A DNA stretch of 64,000 nt. It comes from Exiguobacterium artemiae 255-15 (GTDB lineage: Bacteria; Bacillota; Bacilli; Exiguobacteriales; Exiguobacteriaceae). The translations under genes were made by a program, and so were the position numbers. The stretch lies in contig NC_010556.1 in NCBI RefSeq assembly GCF_000019905.1, forward strand, positions 2,630,001 to 2,694,000, in the 5' to 3' direction. Under the pieces are notes generated by a model. The model was given only the letters and a program-made list of their open reading frames with translations, had not been told where the DNA came from and searched no databases. Position 1 is the stretch's first letter, and each line of letters opens with the position of its first letter. Below are positions 11,555 through 40,984 of this stretch, piece by piece.

Positions 11555-12925
11555 ATGAAAAACACGAAAAAATTCGCAGCAACAGCCATGGCAGCAGCAC
11601 TCGTATTACCAGGAACGGCAGCATTCGCTTCCGGTGGCGGAGACGACATGAAACATGAGGAGAGCGCGAAGAACGTCACGGTCAAAACAAAAGCCGCTGA
11701 CCTCCGTGCGACACTCGATCAGTTACTCTCGGAGCACTTTGTGCTTGCCGTCATGGACATGAAAAAACAATATGACGGATCAAAAGATGCGAAGTATTAT
11801 GAAGCCGCACTGAAACAGAACGCACTCGACATGACACCGGCAATCGCTTCTGTCTACGGCGACGAAGGTGCAAAACAATTCGAAAAAATCTTCGTAGCCC
11901 ACAACAAATACACAACGGATCTCGTCAAAGCCGTCAAAGCGGACGATCAAGACGGCATCAACGCGTCGAAAGCGGAAACAGAAGAGTTCGTCCAGGACCT
12001 CTCGAGCTTCCTCGACACAGCAACAGAAGGTAAACTGCCGAAGGCAGCAGCGGAAGAAGTTCTCCGTGCCCATGAAGCGGACGTCTATAAAACATTCCAA
12101 CAATATGCAACTGGTGACTACGAAGGATCGTACAACACGTTCCGTGAAGGTTACAGCCGCATGTATGATATCTCAAAAGCACTCTCCGTCGCGATCACAA
12201 CACAGATGCCTGAGAAGTTCGACAACACGAAAGCGGACACAAAAGCCGCTGACCTCCGGTCAACACTCAACAGCCTCGCAGCTGAACACGTGGCACTTGC
12301 CAACATCAGCATGACAGCGGGCGTCGATCAAGCGAAAGACTATGATGCAGCGAACTGGGCAGAAGACATGCACACAGCTGACTTCAAAGCCGCTATGAAA
12401 TCGGTTTACGGTCAAGCAGGTGCGGATCAGTTCGAGCAAGTTTGGACGAAAAACCACATCGAAGCGCAAGCAAACCTCGTCACAGCAGCCATCAACGACG
12501 ACAAGAAATTGATGGGTGATGCGCAAGACATGCTCAAAATGTTCTCGAATGACTTCGGTGCGTTCCTTGGCGCAGCAACAGAAGAGAACCTTCCGACAAA
12601 AGCAGCACAAGAAGCGGTCTCTGGTCATGAGACATACGTCCAAGATACGTTCATGCAGTATGTCGAAGGCGACTACAAAGGATCGGTTGACACATTCCGT
12701 GAGTCGTATGCTTACATGTACGGCGTCGGTGAAAACCTCGGTGAAGCGATCGTCAAACAATCACCTGAGAAATTCATGGATGGTACACCAGGTTCAATGC
12801 CGAACACAGGTAACGGCGGCATGAGCGACAACAATACAGCAGGTACAACAGGTGCGATCGCACTCTTCGGTCTTGCACTCGGTGCAGCCGGAATCGTCCT
12901 CGCACGCAAACGTCAAAACGCATAA
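11555..12925 (+). CDS. cell-wall-anchored protein with two copies of an all-helical His-containing domain
   Basis: The 456-residue protein has a signal peptide (1-26), then two helical domains offset by exactly 184 residues (KAADLR at 46-51 and 230-235). They even share a 20-nt identical DNA stretch. The sorting signal is MPNTG at 415-419, a hydrophobic helix and ARKRQNA. Each repeat keeps EH (His61/His245), a His in AHNKY or NHIEA, and a His in HEADV or HETYV, plus Met residues in the first helix. That is the look of a metal- or heme-binding helical bundle. The sortase gene directly downstream suggests a dedicated pair. I do not recognise the family; the metal role is inference. Confidence 0.75.
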   Translation: MKNTKKFAATAMAAALVLPGTAAFASGGGDDMKHEESAKNVTVKTKAADLRATLDQLLSEHFVLAVMDMKKQYDGSKDAKYYEAALKQNALDMTPAIASVYGDEGAKQFEKIFVAHNKYTTDLVKAVKADDQDGINASKAETEEFVQDLSSFLDTATEGKLPKAAAEEVLRAHEADVYKTFQQYATGDYEGSYNTFREGYSRMYDISKALSVAITTQMPEKFDNTKADTKAADLRSTLNSLAAEHVALANISMTAGVDQAKDYDAANWAEDMHTADFKAAMKSVYGQAGADQFEQVWTKNHIEAQANLVTAAINDDKKLMGDAQDMLKMFSNDFGAFLGAATEENLPTKAAQEAVSGHETYVQDTFMQYVEGDYKGSVDTFRESYAYMYGVGENLGEAIVKQSPEKFMDGTPGSMPNTGNGGMSDNNTAGTTGAIALFGLALGAAGIVLARKRQNA

Positions 12926-26324: not shown

Positions 26325-26504
26325 TGTGGCATCACTTCCTTTTTAATGGTAATTCCGTTTCAATTCAACAACTTCTAATATACCCTTCACAAAGTAAAAT
26401 GTCTAGGATTTGAACTGATTCAAAGGACTCCCTGACCATTGGCTTATATCCAAGTCACTCCGGACGACCGATAATAAGATAACTTAATCTAGGGAGTGAA
26501 CGAT

Positions 26505-27374
26505 ATGAAACGCTTCATCCTCAGTTTGCTTTGTCTTACGATGGCTGCGACGCTTCTGCCTGTCAGAACCGAAGCGGCTGTCACCGTCACGCGTCATACC
26601 GTGATGTGGTCCATCCCTGAAGCGAAACAAATTCCAACGAAAGTCACACAGCTGGCAAACAGACAGATGAAACGTGTCTACCTGCATGTCGCTGTCGAGG
26701 GTGACCGAACCCTCTACCGCACATTCGTTGAAAAAGCCCACCTTGCCGGAATCGAAGTCTATTTTTTGTTCGGTCAGCCGAGCTGGATTACGAATGAAGG
26801 CACGACGAACCGGCCGAACGTCGAAGATCCGTTAGCCTGGATCAGTGTCTATCTGCAAGAAACGATGGAACGTCCGGATGGCATCAGCGTCGATCTCGAA
26901 CCTTACGCCTTACCGGCCTGGGAAACGGATCAAGCGTCTGTCATCGCCTCTTATCAACGCCTGCTGACAGCTTTTCACGATGTTAGCACAGCGCAAAATC
27001 TCCCGTTGCAACTGTTCCTGCCGTTTTGGTTCCATACCGTGCCGGATGCTTCCGGACAACCGCTCAGCGAATGGGCGATGGAACTGGCTGATGAAGTCAC
27101 CTTGATGAGTTACCGGACCGTCTACAGTGGTGGTAATGGTCTTGCTGCGATTACGATGACTGATGCGCTCTACGCCGCCAGTCATCAACATCTTTTGTCG
27201 TACGCCCTGGAATTCACGGAACTTCCGGAAACACCAAGCATCACCTTTTACGGAAAGACACGGACTGCGCTCAATCAGCTCGTCAATCAAACGATGAACA
27301 GCTCCCTGCCGCCAAGCGCCATCGTCTATCATGATTTTGATGCCTACCAGGATTTCATGCGCAGTACGCAGTGA
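26505..27374 (+). CDS. secreted glycosidase-like protein with DLEP motif
   Basis: The protein (289 residues from ATG 26505, after GGGAG at 8 bp) has a signal peptide (about 1-24, ending TEAA) and alternating strands and helices like a TIM barrel. YLHVAVEGD, VYFLFGQPSW, GISVDLEPYAL (about 125-135), LFLPFW and VTLMSYRTVYSG look like successive barrel strands. Acidic residues at strand 4 and a Met-Ser-Tyr strand 6 resemble GH18-like and other glycosidase folds. I cannot assign a family or substrate. A GTG at 26496 is in frame but badly placed. It is monocistronic and ends beside the structured repeat. Confidence 0.6.
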   Translation: MKRFILSLLCLTMAATLLPVRTEAAVTVTRHTVMWSIPEAKQIPTKVTQLANRQMKRVYLHVAVEGDRTLYRTFVEKAHLAGIEVYFLFGQPSWITNEGTTNRPNVEDPLAWISVYLQETMERPDGISVDLEPYALPAWETDQASVIASYQRLLTAFHDVSTAQNLPLQLFLPFWFHTVPDASGQPLSEWAMELADEVTLMSYRTVYSGGNGLAAITMTDALYAASHQHLLSYALEFTELPETPSITFYGKTRTALNQLVNQTMNSSLPPSAIVYHDFDAYQDFMRSTQ

Positions 27375-27412
27375 TTTTACTTTCCGTTTAATTTTAAAAA
27401 AGTGGCTGACTC

Positions 27413-27569
27413 AAAAAAGAATCACTCGTCTTCTCACGCCCTTTCCTCAGGCGAGACACAAGCCAGTTTCCCTGCCTCATTCAGGCAGGGAATCGGGTCT
27501 TGTTTGTCTCTGACAGCGCAAAATGCGCTTTTTCCTGTAGGAGTGGCGTGAAGCGAGTGATTCTTTTTT
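27413..27569 (+). repeat. dispersed structured repeat, copy 1
   Basis: This noncoding element of about 157 bp folds into one long hairpin with nested stems. The outer arms AAAAAAGAATCACTCG and CGAGTGATTCTTTTTT are perfect; next are TCACGCC/GGCGTGA (27434-27440/27545-27551), TCCTCAGG/CCTGTAGGA and GAGACA/TGTCTC. The top stem is TTCCCTGCCT/AGGCAGGGAA, and a side hairpin AGCGC/GCGCT is followed by TTTT. The core from GGCGAGACACAAGCCAGTTT on matches copy 2 at 39606-39746, in the same orientation. It sits between convergent genes. See findings. Confidence 0.75.
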
Positions 27570-27573
27570 TACG

Positions 27574-27612
27574 AGATCAGGGTGGCAGATTATCATTCTG
27601 CCACCCTGATCT
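27574..27612. terminator. bidirectional hairpin terminator between the glycosidase-like gene and mbl
   Basis: A 16-bp perfect stem AGATCAGGGTGGCAGA/TCTGCCACCCTGATCT with a 7-nt loop. T-runs are short on both sides. Confidence 0.75.
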
Positions 27613-27653
27613 TTGGAGAGACTGACATTTGAGTCAGCACCTTTTGATTTGTC

Positions 27654-28637
27654 TTATTTCCCTAAATGATCAAGCATGATGCCTGTTCCACGTGCGACAC
27701 ATAACATCGGATCTTCCGCGATCAATACCGGAAGTCCCAGTTCTTTTGCCAGCAACTGATCGATGCCGTCAAGTAGTGCTCCGCCGCCTGTCAGGATGAT
27801 GCCGCGGTCGATGATATCCGCCGCCAGTTCCGGCGGTGTTTTTTCGAGGACCCGTTTTGTCGCTTCAACGATTTCCATTGCCGCTTCCGCCAACGCTTCA
27901 TGCATTTCCAGTGATGAAATCGTGATGTTGTCCGGGAGTCCTGTCACGAGATTCCGCCCCCGAATGTCCATTTCTTCCTGACGCCCCTCATCGGAGACAG
28001 TTGCGACCGTCATCTTGACGTTTTGAGCCGTCCGTTCCCCGATGATGAGTTTATGATTATCCTTGATTGCACGGATGATGTCGTGGTCAAACCGATCCCC
28101 TGCTACTTTGATCGTTTCGCCGCAGACGATATCGCCCATCGACAGGACGGCTACATCCGTTGTTCCGCCACCGATGTCAATGACCATGTGACCAGCCGGC
28201 ATCCAGATGTCCATCCCTGCTCCGACGGCTGCGACTTTTGGTTCGACTTCCAGGAAAACAGTTTTTGCACCTGATTTTTCACCAGCTTGACGAATCGCTT
28301 TCGCTTCGACCGTCGTGATGCTGGCCGGTGTACAAATCAACATCCGGACGCCGCCGAACATACTTCTCACTTCGATTTTATCGATGAAGTGACGTAACAT
28401 CGCTTCCGTCATTTCAAAATCAGCGATTACACCATCGCGTAACGGACGGATCGCGACGATGTTTCCCGGTGTCCGGCCAACCATCTGGTGAGCTTCCGTT
28501 CCGACTGCATGGATTTTTCCTGTTGCTTTATCAATCGCGACGACCGATGGCTCGTCGAGTACAATTCCCTTACCTTTTACGTGAATGACGACATTTGCCG
28601 TCCCCAGGTCAATTCCGATATCCTTTGTCAAAAACAT
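27654..28637 (-). CDS. mbl: MreB/Mbl-type rod-shape actin homologue
   Basis: The 327-residue actin-like ATPase has phosphate-1 (IGIDLGTANVVIHVKGKGIV), phosphate-2 (MVIDIGGGTTDVAVLSMGDI) and the adenosine motif (RGIILTGGGALLDGIDQLL). It forms membrane-bound filaments that steer cell-wall synthesis. Its place between murA and flhO-flhP matches mbl of B. subtilis, hence the name; paralogy with mreB cannot be excluded by sequence alone. AAGGAG precedes the ATG. No spoIIID lies upstream. Confidence 0.92.
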   Translation of the reverse strand: MFLTKDIGIDLGTANVVIHVKGKGIVLDEPSVVAIDKATGKIHAVGTEAHQMVGRTPGNIVAIRPLRDGVIADFEMTEAMLRHFIDKIEVRSMFGGVRMLICTPASITTVEAKAIRQAGEKSGAKTVFLEVEPKVAAVGAGMDIWMPAGHMVIDIGGGTTDVAVLSMGDIVCGETIKVAGDRFDHDIIRAIKDNHKLIIGERTAQNVKMTVATVSDEGRQEEMDIRGRNLVTGLPDNITISSLEMHEALAEAAMEIVEATKRVLEKTPPELAADIIDRGIILTGGGALLDGIDQLLAKELGLPVLIAEDPMLCVARGTGIMLDHLGK

Positions 28638-38645: not shown

Positions 38646-38727
38646 ACTCATCTACCTTGATTTGAAAACGATTGGCTACATATGGTAAAAAGAAGTGACA
38701 TGAACCAATCAAAAGGAAGTGAACCTC

Positions 38728-39519
38728 ATGGAAACCGAACGCTTTCGTGTTCAGTGCGGGGATTGCTTCGGACTTTGTTGTACGGCCCTCGCGTTTTCCG
38801 CTTCAAGCGATTTTGGTCACGACAAACCGGAAGCGACACCTTGCCGGAATTTAGACAACGAGTACCGCTGTCGGATTCACGACCGGCTTCGCCCAAGCGG
38901 CTATAAAGGATGCACCGTCTATGACTGCTTCGGTGCCGGGCAACAGATTTCGCAGGTGACATTCCAAGGGGTCTACGATGAAACGACGAAACCTGTCATG
39001 TACGCCCTCTATCCGAAGATGGTCCATCTGCAGGAAATGATGTGGTACCTGACGGACGGCATCCGACCGGTCACCCGGACGATTCATCCGTTGCTCGAGG
39101 ACAAGCTGGCCGAACTCGATGCCCTGACCCACTCTTCTCCGGAAGAACTGGCGGCACTTGATCTCGATCATGTAAGGGCAACCTTGCTACCGCTCCTCGC
39201 TCAAATCGAAGAACTGGTTCAAACGCCATTTGCCGGAAAAGCCAGACGTACGCTTCCCCGCGACTGGATCGGGAAAAATCTTGCCGGACAGGACTTCTCC
39301 GGCGTTAGTGTCCGTGGCCAGTTTTTGCTTGCGACGAACTTATCGAACAGCCGATTACGCGGCGTCAACTTCCTCGGTGCCGACCTGCGGGACTGTCAGT
39401 TGGCGGGAGCTGATTTGACCGACGCGTTGTTTTTGACACAGGCGCAGGTCAATGCGGCACAAGGTGACGCGAAGACACGTTTGCCGGAACGGTTGCTCCG
39501 CCCGTCGCACTGGGCATAA
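38728..39519 (+). CDS. pentapeptide-repeat protein with N-terminal cysteine cluster
   Basis: The 263-residue protein starts with a Cys-rich module (about 5-80): CGDCFGLCC, an internal CRNLDNEYRCRIHDRL, and GCTVYDCFGAG. This recalls metal-binding YkgJ-like sites. A helical middle part follows, then a C-terminal run of pentapeptide repeats (about 200-245) with A(N/D)LxxxxL rhythm. The ATG at 38728 follows AAGGAAGTG at 6-7 bp. A weak promoter TTGATT-18-TATGGT lies upstream. Such proteins are widespread, function unknown; a metal-linked fold is inferred. Confidence 0.75.
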   Translation: METERFRVQCGDCFGLCCTALAFSASSDFGHDKPEATPCRNLDNEYRCRIHDRLRPSGYKGCTVYDCFGAGQQISQVTFQGVYDETTKPVMYALYPKMVHLQEMMWYLTDGIRPVTRTIHPLLEDKLAELDALTHSSPEELAALDLDHVRATLLPLLAQIEELVQTPFAGKARRTLPRDWIGKNLAGQDFSGVSVRGQFLLATNLSNSRLRGVNFLGADLRDCQLAGADLTDALFLTQAQVNAAQGDAKTRLPERLLRPSHWA

Positions 39520-39605
39520 GGGAACAATGGCGTATTAATTATTGTCCAAAAGAAGTGCCGTCTCTTTCCCAAAGATAATGCGTCATTCTATCGTGACAGG
39601 TGTTC

Positions 39606-39746
39606 CGTCCTCTTCCTCATGCGCTTTCCGCAGGCGAGACACAAGCCAGTTTTCCTGCCCCTGTGGTCAGGAAACCGGGTCTCGTTTGTCTCTGACAGCG
39701 CAAAAAAACGCGCTTTTTCCTGCAGGAGTCGCATGAAACGAGGACG
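39606..39746 (+). repeat. dispersed structured repeat, copy 2
   Basis: This second copy of the element at 27413 has the same orientation and nested stems. Outer arms are CGTCCTC/GAGGACG, next TCATGCG/CGCATGA (39617-39623/39730-39736). The core starts at GGCGAGACACAAGCCAGTTT, the top stem is TTTCCTG/CAGGAAA, and the side hairpin AGCGC/GCGCT is followed by TTTT. Pairing may extend to CGTGA/TCACG (39592-39752). It sits between the convergent pentapeptide gene and mnaA. Confidence 0.75.
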
Positions 39747-39782
39747 TTCACGGTATTTAAAAAGGTATCTGCTGTAGTCCAT

Positions 39783-39827
39783 AAAAGGACCGGTGCCGCC
39801 GTTTTTAACGGTAGGACCGGTCCTTTT
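39783..39827. terminator. bidirectional intrinsic terminator before mnaA
   Basis: AAAAGGACCGGT pairs perfectly with ACCGGTCCTTTT, with T-runs both ways. Confidence 0.9.
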
Positions 39828-39847: not shown

Positions 39848-40984
39848 TCAGTTCTCGACTTTAAACGGCTCAAACGCCGCATCCTGATTAAAGTGTTCCA
39901 GAATCGCCGCCGCAATCCGTTCGGAAGCATGACCGTCTCCGTATGGATTCGAAGCTTGCGCCATTTCCTTATACGCCGCTTCATCTTCGAGCAATTCGCT
40001 CGCGAGACGGTAAATCGTTTCTTCATCCGTTCCGGCCAGCTTCAACGTTCCCGCTTTAACGCCTTCCGGACGTTCGGTCGTATCGCGTAAGACGAGAACC
40101 GGCACACCGAGTGACGGAGCTTCTTCCTGAACGCCGCCGGAATCCGTCAAGATAAGGTGCGCCCGGCTCGCAAAGTTATGGAAGTCAAAGACATCGAGCG
40201 GCGGAATCAAGGTGATTCGATCGTGTCCTCCAAAAACCTCGTTCGCAGCTTCCTGAACGACAGGATTCAAGTGGACGGGATAGACGACATGAATATCCGG
40301 ATGATCGTCGACGAGACGCCGGATCGCCCGGAACATCTGATGCATCTTTGCACCTAAATTTTCCCGCCGGTGCGCCGTCATCAGAACAAGTCGTTTCGAA
40401 CCGATCTGTTCAAGAACAGGATGGACGTAATCCGGTTGGACCGTCGTTTGCAGGGCATCGATCGCCGTGTTCCCCGTTACGAAGACGCCTGTATGTCGGT
40501 TTTCCGATGCCAGATTCGCAGCCGCCTGATCGGTCGGTGCAAAATGCAGATCGGCCAGCGTCGAGGTCAGTTGCCGGTTCACCTCTTCCGGAAATGGTGA
40601 GTACTTATTGTATGTCCGGAGTCCCGCTTCGACATGTCCCACGGCGATTTGATTATAGTAGGCGGCGAGACTGCCGACGAATGTCGTCGTCGTGTCACCG
40701 TGGACTAGGACGAGATCCGGTTTAACTTCCTTCATGACGGCATCGAGTCCCTCGAGACCGCGTGTCGTGATATCGACCAGCGTCTGTCGTGCTTTCATGA
40801 TGTTCAAGTCATGATCGGGCGTAATCTCGAACAGCGCCAAGACTTGATCAAGCATCTCCCGGTGCTGGGCCGTGATCGTGACATGGACCTCAAACGCAGG
40901 ATTGTTTTTTAAGACGTTGACGAGCGGTGCCATTTTGACAGCTTCCGGTCGTGTGCCGAAAATCGGCATGACTTTGATGGGCAT
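39848..40984 (-). CDS. mnaA: UDP-N-acetylglucosamine 2-epimerase (non-hydrolysing)
   Basis: The 378-residue enzyme interconverts UDP-GlcNAc and UDP-ManNAc for teichoic acid linkage units and other wall polymers. It starts MPIKVMPIFGTRPEAVKMAP and has VHGDTTTTFVGSLAAYY, VGHVEAGLRTYNKYSPFPEE and the uridine site LTDSGGVQEEAPSLGVPVLV. Upstream upp and downstream atp match Bacillus order. GGAGGAAGTCCGT precedes the ATG. Confidence 0.95.
   Translation of the reverse strand: MPIKVMPIFGTRPEAVKMAPLVNVLKNNPAFEVHVTITAQHREMLDQVLALFEITPDHDLNIMKARQTLVDITTRGLEGLDAVMKEVKPDLVLVHGDTTTTFVGSLAAYYNQIAVGHVEAGLRTYNKYSPFPEEVNRQLTSTLADLHFAPTDQAAANLASENRHTGVFVTGNTAIDALQTTVQPDYVHPVLEQIGSKRLVLMTAHRRENLGAKMHQMFRAIRRLVDDHPDIHVVYPVHLNPVVQEAANEVFGGHDRITLIPPLDVFDFHNFASRAHLILTDSGGVQEEAPSLGVPVLVLRDTTERPEGVKAGTLKLAGTDEETIYRLASELLEDEAAYKEMAQASNPYGDGHASERIAAAILEHFNQDAAFEPFKVEN

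Follow-up and report, generated by a model that had tools for sequence, protein, structure and literature searches.

The stretch of DNA analysed here, 64,000 nucleotides of the Exiguobacterium artemiae 255-15 genome (the window), carries two copies of a structured element, at 27413-27569 and 39606-39746. Both copies are present in the sequence as the initial annotation described them, and the list of open reading frames and the gene context confirm that each is flanked by convergent genes. Copy 1 forms the core of a larger 240-bp unit (27402-27641), while copy 2 lacks the outer ends of this unit and represents an older, core-only branch of the same family. The annotation covered the core; it overlooked the unit's outer half and the terminator replacement described below. 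The features of the two loci are as follows.

26496-27374, plus strand: 292-aa ORF that ends 27 bp before the copy 1 unit (ORF list, gene context)
27402-27641, plus strand: copy 1, complete 240-bp unit from one arm of the outer stem to the other (filled/empty comparison with genomes G014, G018, G004 and G012)
27402-27412, plus strand: left outer arm GTGGCTGACTC (sequence; boundary from the filled/empty junction alignment)
27413-27569, plus strand: core, in the limits first given, conserved across the family (match to covariance model R1 at 27412-27574, 190 bits)
27420-27428, plus strand: P1 outer arm AATCACTCG, partner 27554-27562 (fold)
27434-27440, plus strand: P1 inner arm TCACGCC, partner 27545-27551 (each pair changed on both sides 12 to 36 times among 160 copies)
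27453-27462, plus strand: P3a GAGAC (partner 27506-27510) and P3b ACAAG (partner 27499-27503) (variant pairs elsewhere)
27515-27529, plus strand: P4 hairpin AGCGC...GCGCT (variants GGAAG/CTTCC and AGTGC/GCACT in other copies)
27574-27612, unstranded: second hairpin AGATCAGGGTGGCAGA/TCTGCCACCCTGATCT with a T-rich tail, terminator-like, within the unit (fold)
27631-27641, plus strand: right outer arm GAGTCAGCACC, pairing imperfectly with the left arm (sequence; folds with the left arm)
27654-28637, minus strand: convergent 327-aa ORF that ends just past the copy 1 unit (ORF list, gene context)
38719-39519, plus strand: 266-aa ORF left of copy 2 (ORF list)
39594-39761, plus strand: copy 2, older core-only member (R1 match, 131 bits; orthologues in relatives)
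39783-39827, unstranded: native bidirectional terminator AAAAGGACCGGT...ACCGGTCCTTTT beside copy 2 (alignment; kept in 5/5 species compared)
39848-40984, minus strand: convergent 378-aa ORF right of copy 2 (ORF list)

From left to right, the copy 1 unit consists of arm GTGGCTGACTC, an A-run, the core, a T-run, the hairpin AGATCAGGGTGGCAGA/TCTGCCACCCTGATCT and arm GAGTCAGCACC; the core itself is made up of P1, P2, P3a/b with an apical hairpin, and P4. The outermost stem of the full-length unit in the family is GGGGCTGACTC/GAGTCAGCCCC. A near relative of the second hairpin serves as the lone terminator at an empty site (locus L005 in G014). RNA folding of copy 1 is far more stable than that of dinucleotide shuffles (z = -9.5 on the plus and -10.8 on the minus strand), as is that of copy 2 (z = -4.6 and -6.7), and the full unit folds at -135.6 (plus) and -134.5 (minus) kcal/mol, with z about -13 on either strand. 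An intrinsic terminator consists of a hairpin and a downstream U-run, and a single one, working in both directions, often serves two convergent genes. The A-run, unit and T-run at copy 1, the stable folds on both strands and the convergent genes are the features of such a bidirectional terminator, and the unit probably does terminate transcription. Elsewhere in the window, a 30-base direct repeat (11687-11716 and 12239-12268) is 90% identical over copies 552 bases apart.

The compensatory changes reported between the two window copies are exactly as claimed (TCACGCC/GGCGTGA versus TCATGCG/CGCATGA, and AATCACTCG/CGAGTGATT versus CGTCCTC/GAGGACG), and paired variants in many further copies bear out a dispersed structured family. 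We parsed 160 distinct copies by script (96 in an earlier round) and tested 26 pairs: 18 had both-side changes, and the majority of the variable pairs exceeded 300 of 300 shuffles, although the counts are not independent events because the copies are mutually related. P1 and P3 each display several different standard pairs. Two clades of genomes differ in complementary P1 ends, the outer pair reading GAATGACGCGTC/GACGCGTCATTC in the other clade; P3a occurs as GGAAC/GTTCC, GAGGC/GCCTC, GGGAC/GTCCC or GAGTC/GACTC, and P3b as GCAAG/CTTGC, ATAAG/CTTAT, GTAAG/CTTAC or GGAAG/CTTCC. The broken pair noted in the CAAG arm of copy 2 (ACAAG/CTCGT) is also real, and the A.C at this position recurs in 22 of the 160 copies. 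Among non-Watson-Crick combinations on the plus strand, A.C outnumbers G.T by 98 to 45, with one pair supplying much of the excess. This provides no support for a folded plus-strand RNA and weakly favors, or at most hints at, the minus strand. At orthologous sites the core diverges by 5.6% on average compared to 14.5% in adjacent sequence, about 2.6 times more slowly, and is below its flanks in 24 of 26 orthologue comparisons. This slow rate would fit constraint and homogenisation between copies equally well.

The family is abundant in the window genome, and exact matches to its core are confined to Exiguobacterium. BLAST identified 25 matches to the element in the window genome, 15 of them near full length, and R1, a covariance model built from an alignment (A1) of 34 copies, identified 41 at E up to 1 (about 25 full length; 30 at E below 1e-7), a number far beyond chance. 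All 19 genomes of the Exiguobacterium genus-level group carry it, with 10-41 BLAST matches each, and the stems of the many copies found in relatives keep pairing, the opposite of two outcomes that the annotation had named as refuting it; apart from one weak match, it is absent from 19 genomes of the sister genus group. Searching with an exact 26-base string from the core gave 51 stretches, every one from Exiguobacterium, including E. undae, E. antarcticum, E. indicum and strains KRL4, RIT594, Leaf196 and s193. In line with the annotation, which knew of no named family, Rfam gave zero matches at gathering score in the window and, at E up to 1, nothing on the element in L041, L011, L007, L090, L092 or L095. 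We did not find it in plasmid and phage collections; the sole match in a viral collection is a core-only copy adjoining a terminator on a 19-kb IMG/VR contig (L306:1226-1391). Nor did we find it described for Exiguobacterium in open papers, a weak absence since subscription journals lay outside the search.

Within the genus, copies fall into subfamilies. In one, GGAAC/GTTCC and GGAAGC/GCTTCC replace GAGAC/GTCTC and GCGC. Another, GAGGC/GCCTC, is present in about 100-120 copies in G007 and G015 (L309-L334), often clustered, with some copies 250-430 bp apart and several immediately 3' of a terminator. We also observed a T-box leader (RF00230) at L095:687-922 on the minus strand, close to a GGAAC-type copy, and a short tandem repeat with unit AAAAAGAC downstream of a GGAAC-type copy (L098, L249 and L250), the length of which differs among species.

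The core appears to have more distant relatives. A repeat of Bacillaceae genomes with the blocks GACTCCTGCGGGA..GAGACCCCG..CCCGCGGAAAGCG has the block order of the core's minus strand and occurs in 41 of 300 sampled Bacilli genomes. Its copy number per genome is high, with as many as 137 candidates at first look. R1 gives its copies 32 bits in Exiguobacterium (E 6e-7) and 20 bits in a further Bacilli genome (E 0.003). It has neither the P4 hairpin nor the unit's outer ends. Copies outside Exiguobacterium frequently have GTTGATT..AATCAAC ends, and within the genus the repeat often adjoins the core (L103-L122; G000:C1:300070-300178 and 2821572-2821668). These resemblances suggest that the core and this repeat share common descent, and the Bacillus halodurans families Bhal-1 and Bhal-2 (PMC2267715) might be the same repeat.

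The history of the family is best seen by comparing filled and empty alleles. We used the flanks of 22 unit copies as queries against 7-9 genomes per set and retrieved the orthologous sites. The insertion at L002 is private to the window genome, missing in 9 of 9 relatives searched. Insertions are thus polymorphic between species and the family is mobile; the changed ends, to which the annotation had pointed, do not count as support for immobility. Unfilled relatives carry an intrinsic-terminator-like hairpin at the site in 20 of 20 young loci that have a clear unfilled relative, a set drawn from related genomes in which some insertions are common to several species. In the filled alleles the native hairpin is gone, the unit stands in its place and the outside flanks are kept; we looked for target duplication in these comparisons and saw none. 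At 12 loci whose flanks align (L001, L002, L004, L030, L031, L033, L035, L036, L039, L046, L049 and L053), a script placed the boundaries to the base. At the remaining eight (L003, L027, L034, L037, L045, L047, L050 and L051) the flanks are less alike and the position of the hairpin came from a hairpin finder, which overlooked the right hairpin in relative L146 that is visible in the fold. Two further loci, L005 and L026, were set aside since relatives there hold a hybrid or partly deleted unit. Copy 1, compared with G014, G018, G004 and G012, likewise stands where a native terminator hairpin was. Representative junctions are as follows.

Copy 1 site: G014 AAAAAA-AGGTTCATT..AATGAACCT-TTTTGATTCG; window AAAAAA-GTGGCTGACTC..GAGTCAGCACC-TTTTGATTTG
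L004: relatives CAGTAAAAA-ACTCCTTCGC..GCAAAGGAGT-TTTTGTCGAAC; window genome CAGCAAAAA-GGGGCTGACTC..GAGTCAGCCCC-TTTTGTCGAAC
L046: relative AAAAATAA-AGTTCGTCTTCC..GGAAGACGAACT-CATTTCAG; filled AAAAATAA-GGGGCTGACTC..GAGTCAGCCCC-CATTTCAG
L036: relative AAAAAAC-AGACGACGG..CCGTCGTCT-GTTGCTG; filled AAAAAAC-GAGGCTGACTC..GAGTCAGCTCC-GTTGCTG

Insertion into the loop of the hairpin was rejected, as the native arms are absent from the filled alleles. The right flanks of L002, L035, L036 and L046 are not T-runs, indicating that the boundary follows the hairpin and not the A/T tracts alone. Where just one side has a run (L002, L003, L035, L036 and L046), the A-run lies on the element's left, 5 to 0 by eye, a small-sample hint of polarity. 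Collectively, these comparisons leave us almost certain that the unit has replaced terminator hairpins. At the L001 and L012 loci in G008, G013, G014, G016 and G004, where the unit is absent, plain terminator hairpins are wholly different between close relatives, as if terminators in general turned over by whole-hairpin replacement.

Older members of the family have a different relation to terminators. Core-only copies are common to several species, have P1 sequences that differ from those of the full unit and adjoin terminators rather than replacing them. Copy 2 is an example: it is intact in G014 (L215) and G013 (L216) and internally deleted in G008 (L217) and G018 (L218). The unit's outer hairpin GGGACTGACTTTTGAGTCAGTCCC can also stand on its own as a terminator, and in one case it is accompanied by the second hairpin while the core is absent (L202, 278064; L210, 2809798; L203, 2221389). 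Short palindromic derivatives of 70 bp retain intact P1 ends with the core interior deleted (L017/L022/L099/L100; 203243 and 2735064).

Among 55 copies with both neighbours called by a simple ORF and codon-usage script, 37 lie between convergent and 18 between tandem genes, with none between divergent genes (two further copies have one neighbour uncalled). By comparison, of the window gaps at least 60 bp long, 10% separate convergent and 20% divergent genes, and the convergent background ranges from 10 to 15%. The nominal p below 1e-17 is inflated because orthologous copies in different genomes were counted separately, although the direction is clear. Both orientations occur, tandem gene pairs are balanced (8 sense, 10 antisense) and there is no replication-strand bias (41 of 96, with the origin assumed at the contig start). 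Orthologous copies are in opposite orientation at three loci (L031/L048, L008/L228 and L013/L245), and at L013 the copies clearly belong to one lineage that has flipped in place. Such flips would follow from recombination between the inverted arms.

REP palindromes lie between convergent genes and are avoided upstream of divergent promoters. The Exiguobacterium unit resembles REP/BIME (with RAYT) and ERIC in being a non-coding palindrome located between convergent genes, mostly at gene 3' ends, and avoiding divergent promoters, so this aspect of the annotation's REP-like proposal stands. The unit differs in being much longer, multi-branched and without a Y1 transposase that tracks it, as PF01797 was undetected in about half of the 19 carrier genomes and present in several repeat-free genomes of the second genus. 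To our knowledge, terminator replacement has not been described for REP, BIME or ERIC. Group IIC introns are ribozymes that carry a reverse transcriptase gene and insert at or after a terminator. They target intrinsic terminator motifs (PMC4424553). By contrast, the 240-bp unit has neither a gene nor room for a reverse transcriptase ORF, and its target hairpin is lost. DNA uptake sequences of Haemophilus and Neisseria form terminators, a repeated sequence doubling as a hairpin (PMC2267715), but these are short oligonucleotides, and the Exiguobacterium unit is 240 bp long and has a conserved core with several branches. The bcr1/B. cereus repeats are structured, intergenic, 100-400 bp long, restricted to one group of Bacilli, present in tens of copies and have mobile features, with mobility linked to TTTAT motifs (PMC6542083); Bcr1 is also listed as a stem-loop family (PMC2267715). 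The Exiguobacterium unit shares its structured and intergenic nature, group restriction, tens of copies and mobility with these repeats and differs in replacing a terminator hairpin; we saw no TTTAT pattern at its aligned junctions. We could not match its mode of movement to any described mobile element.

We think it probable that the family is a mobile repeat, non-autonomous and dependent on structure, whose units take the place of terminator hairpins and afterwards work as the terminators themselves. The currently active form would be the unit of about 240 bp. In the proposed sequence of events, the host stem-loop between two gene ends would be lost and a unit closed by GGGGCTGACTC/GAGTCAGCCCC joined there, which would then act as a new, mostly bidirectional terminator with its outer stem as the new hairpin. 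As for mechanism, we tentatively put forward a structure-guided exchange rather than a sequence-specific transposase, a suggestion we hold with well under even confidence. Cutting and joining would take place at the base of the hairpin, perhaps assisted by pairing along the left-hand A-run, which would account for exact boundaries, either orientation and the lack of duplication. One could also speculate about an RNA intermediate that ends in the terminator U-run, which would agree with the hint of polarity and the minus-strand wobble count. More broadly, and somewhat doubtfully, there may be a class of hairpin-exchange elements in which a cellular activity recognises terminator stem-loops by structure, cuts at their base and installs a stem-closed repeat, making terminators the shared currency of transposition and genome-wide turnover.

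Gene conversion or illegitimate recombination through short A-run and T-run homology would produce similar alleles if host recombination copied terminators and the unit were a frequent donor. Nearly every target hairpin is bordered by an A-run and most also by a T-run, and most sites share both runs with the donor; L005/L032 resembles recombination inside a shared hairpin and, like L026, is a partial or hybrid allele that we count against the replacement reading; and the L001 and L012 terminators differ wholly even without the unit. Microhomology-driven conversion could explain many sites in this way, but not all junctions: those of L002, L035, L036 and L046 are exact at the hairpin despite the missing right T-run, and tracts of 4-6 bases are so common that a strict restriction to hairpins would be unexpected. 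We regard this account as somewhat unlikely. Far less probable is a MITE or IS200/IS605-type element that is mobilised by a transposase and targets terminators. Terminal inverted repeats (GGGGCTGACTC/GAGTCAGCCCC at the unit ends), non-coding sequence, high copy number and polymorphic insertions are all traits of such elements. However, the absence of target duplication together with the deletion of the target hairpin means that the unit does not move like a simple MITE, a conclusion that the annotation had drawn from the changed ends. No matching transposase came to light: no copy with an internal transposase was found, and the Y1 genes do not track the family. The lack of a replication-strand bias, with the origin assumed at the contig start, also counts against this account. 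In the window genome we found 13 right-end matches, and the roughly 430 bp read by eye around the five that lie outside known full copies revealed no larger element.

Two further accounts concern the paired changes. The family could be a functional structured RNA (a 3'UTR or small RNA) kept by the host and dispersed by duplication, one of the possibilities first raised. Conservation of the core at orthologous sites with paired changes is consistent with this, as are the excess of minus-strand wobble pairs and the one-sided sites, which place the U-run of a minus-strand transcript on the element's left (5 to 0, by eye). Yet the wobble excess owes much to one pair in copies that are not independent, orientation is balanced between tandem genes, copies invert in place and lineage-specific gains and losses are many; we judge a functional RNA unlikely. 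Alternatively, the compensatory changes may reflect palindrome correction, in which one arm is copied from the other during replication, rather than selection for folding. This would act on DNA and need no function, in line with the weak strand signal, and host terminators at the same sites pair just as near-perfectly. Arm correction leaves the conserved unpaired or invariant positions and the slow core unexplained, and we consider it rather unlikely.

A mobile repeat that replaces terminators would bear on how gene ends evolve. Intrinsic terminators are usually treated as drifting; here a repeat substitutes for them time and again with the precision of a single hairpin. Whether selfish or co-opted, such a repeat offers terminator turnover a direct path that can be tested, and its choice of target is unusual for mobile DNA. 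Because filled and empty alleles are numerous in E. undae, E. antarcticum, E. indicum, KRL4, RIT594 and Leaf196, its mechanism is open to genetics. Beyond Exiguobacterium, the analysis brings to light what may be a broad and apparently unnamed superfamily of repeats in Bacilli.
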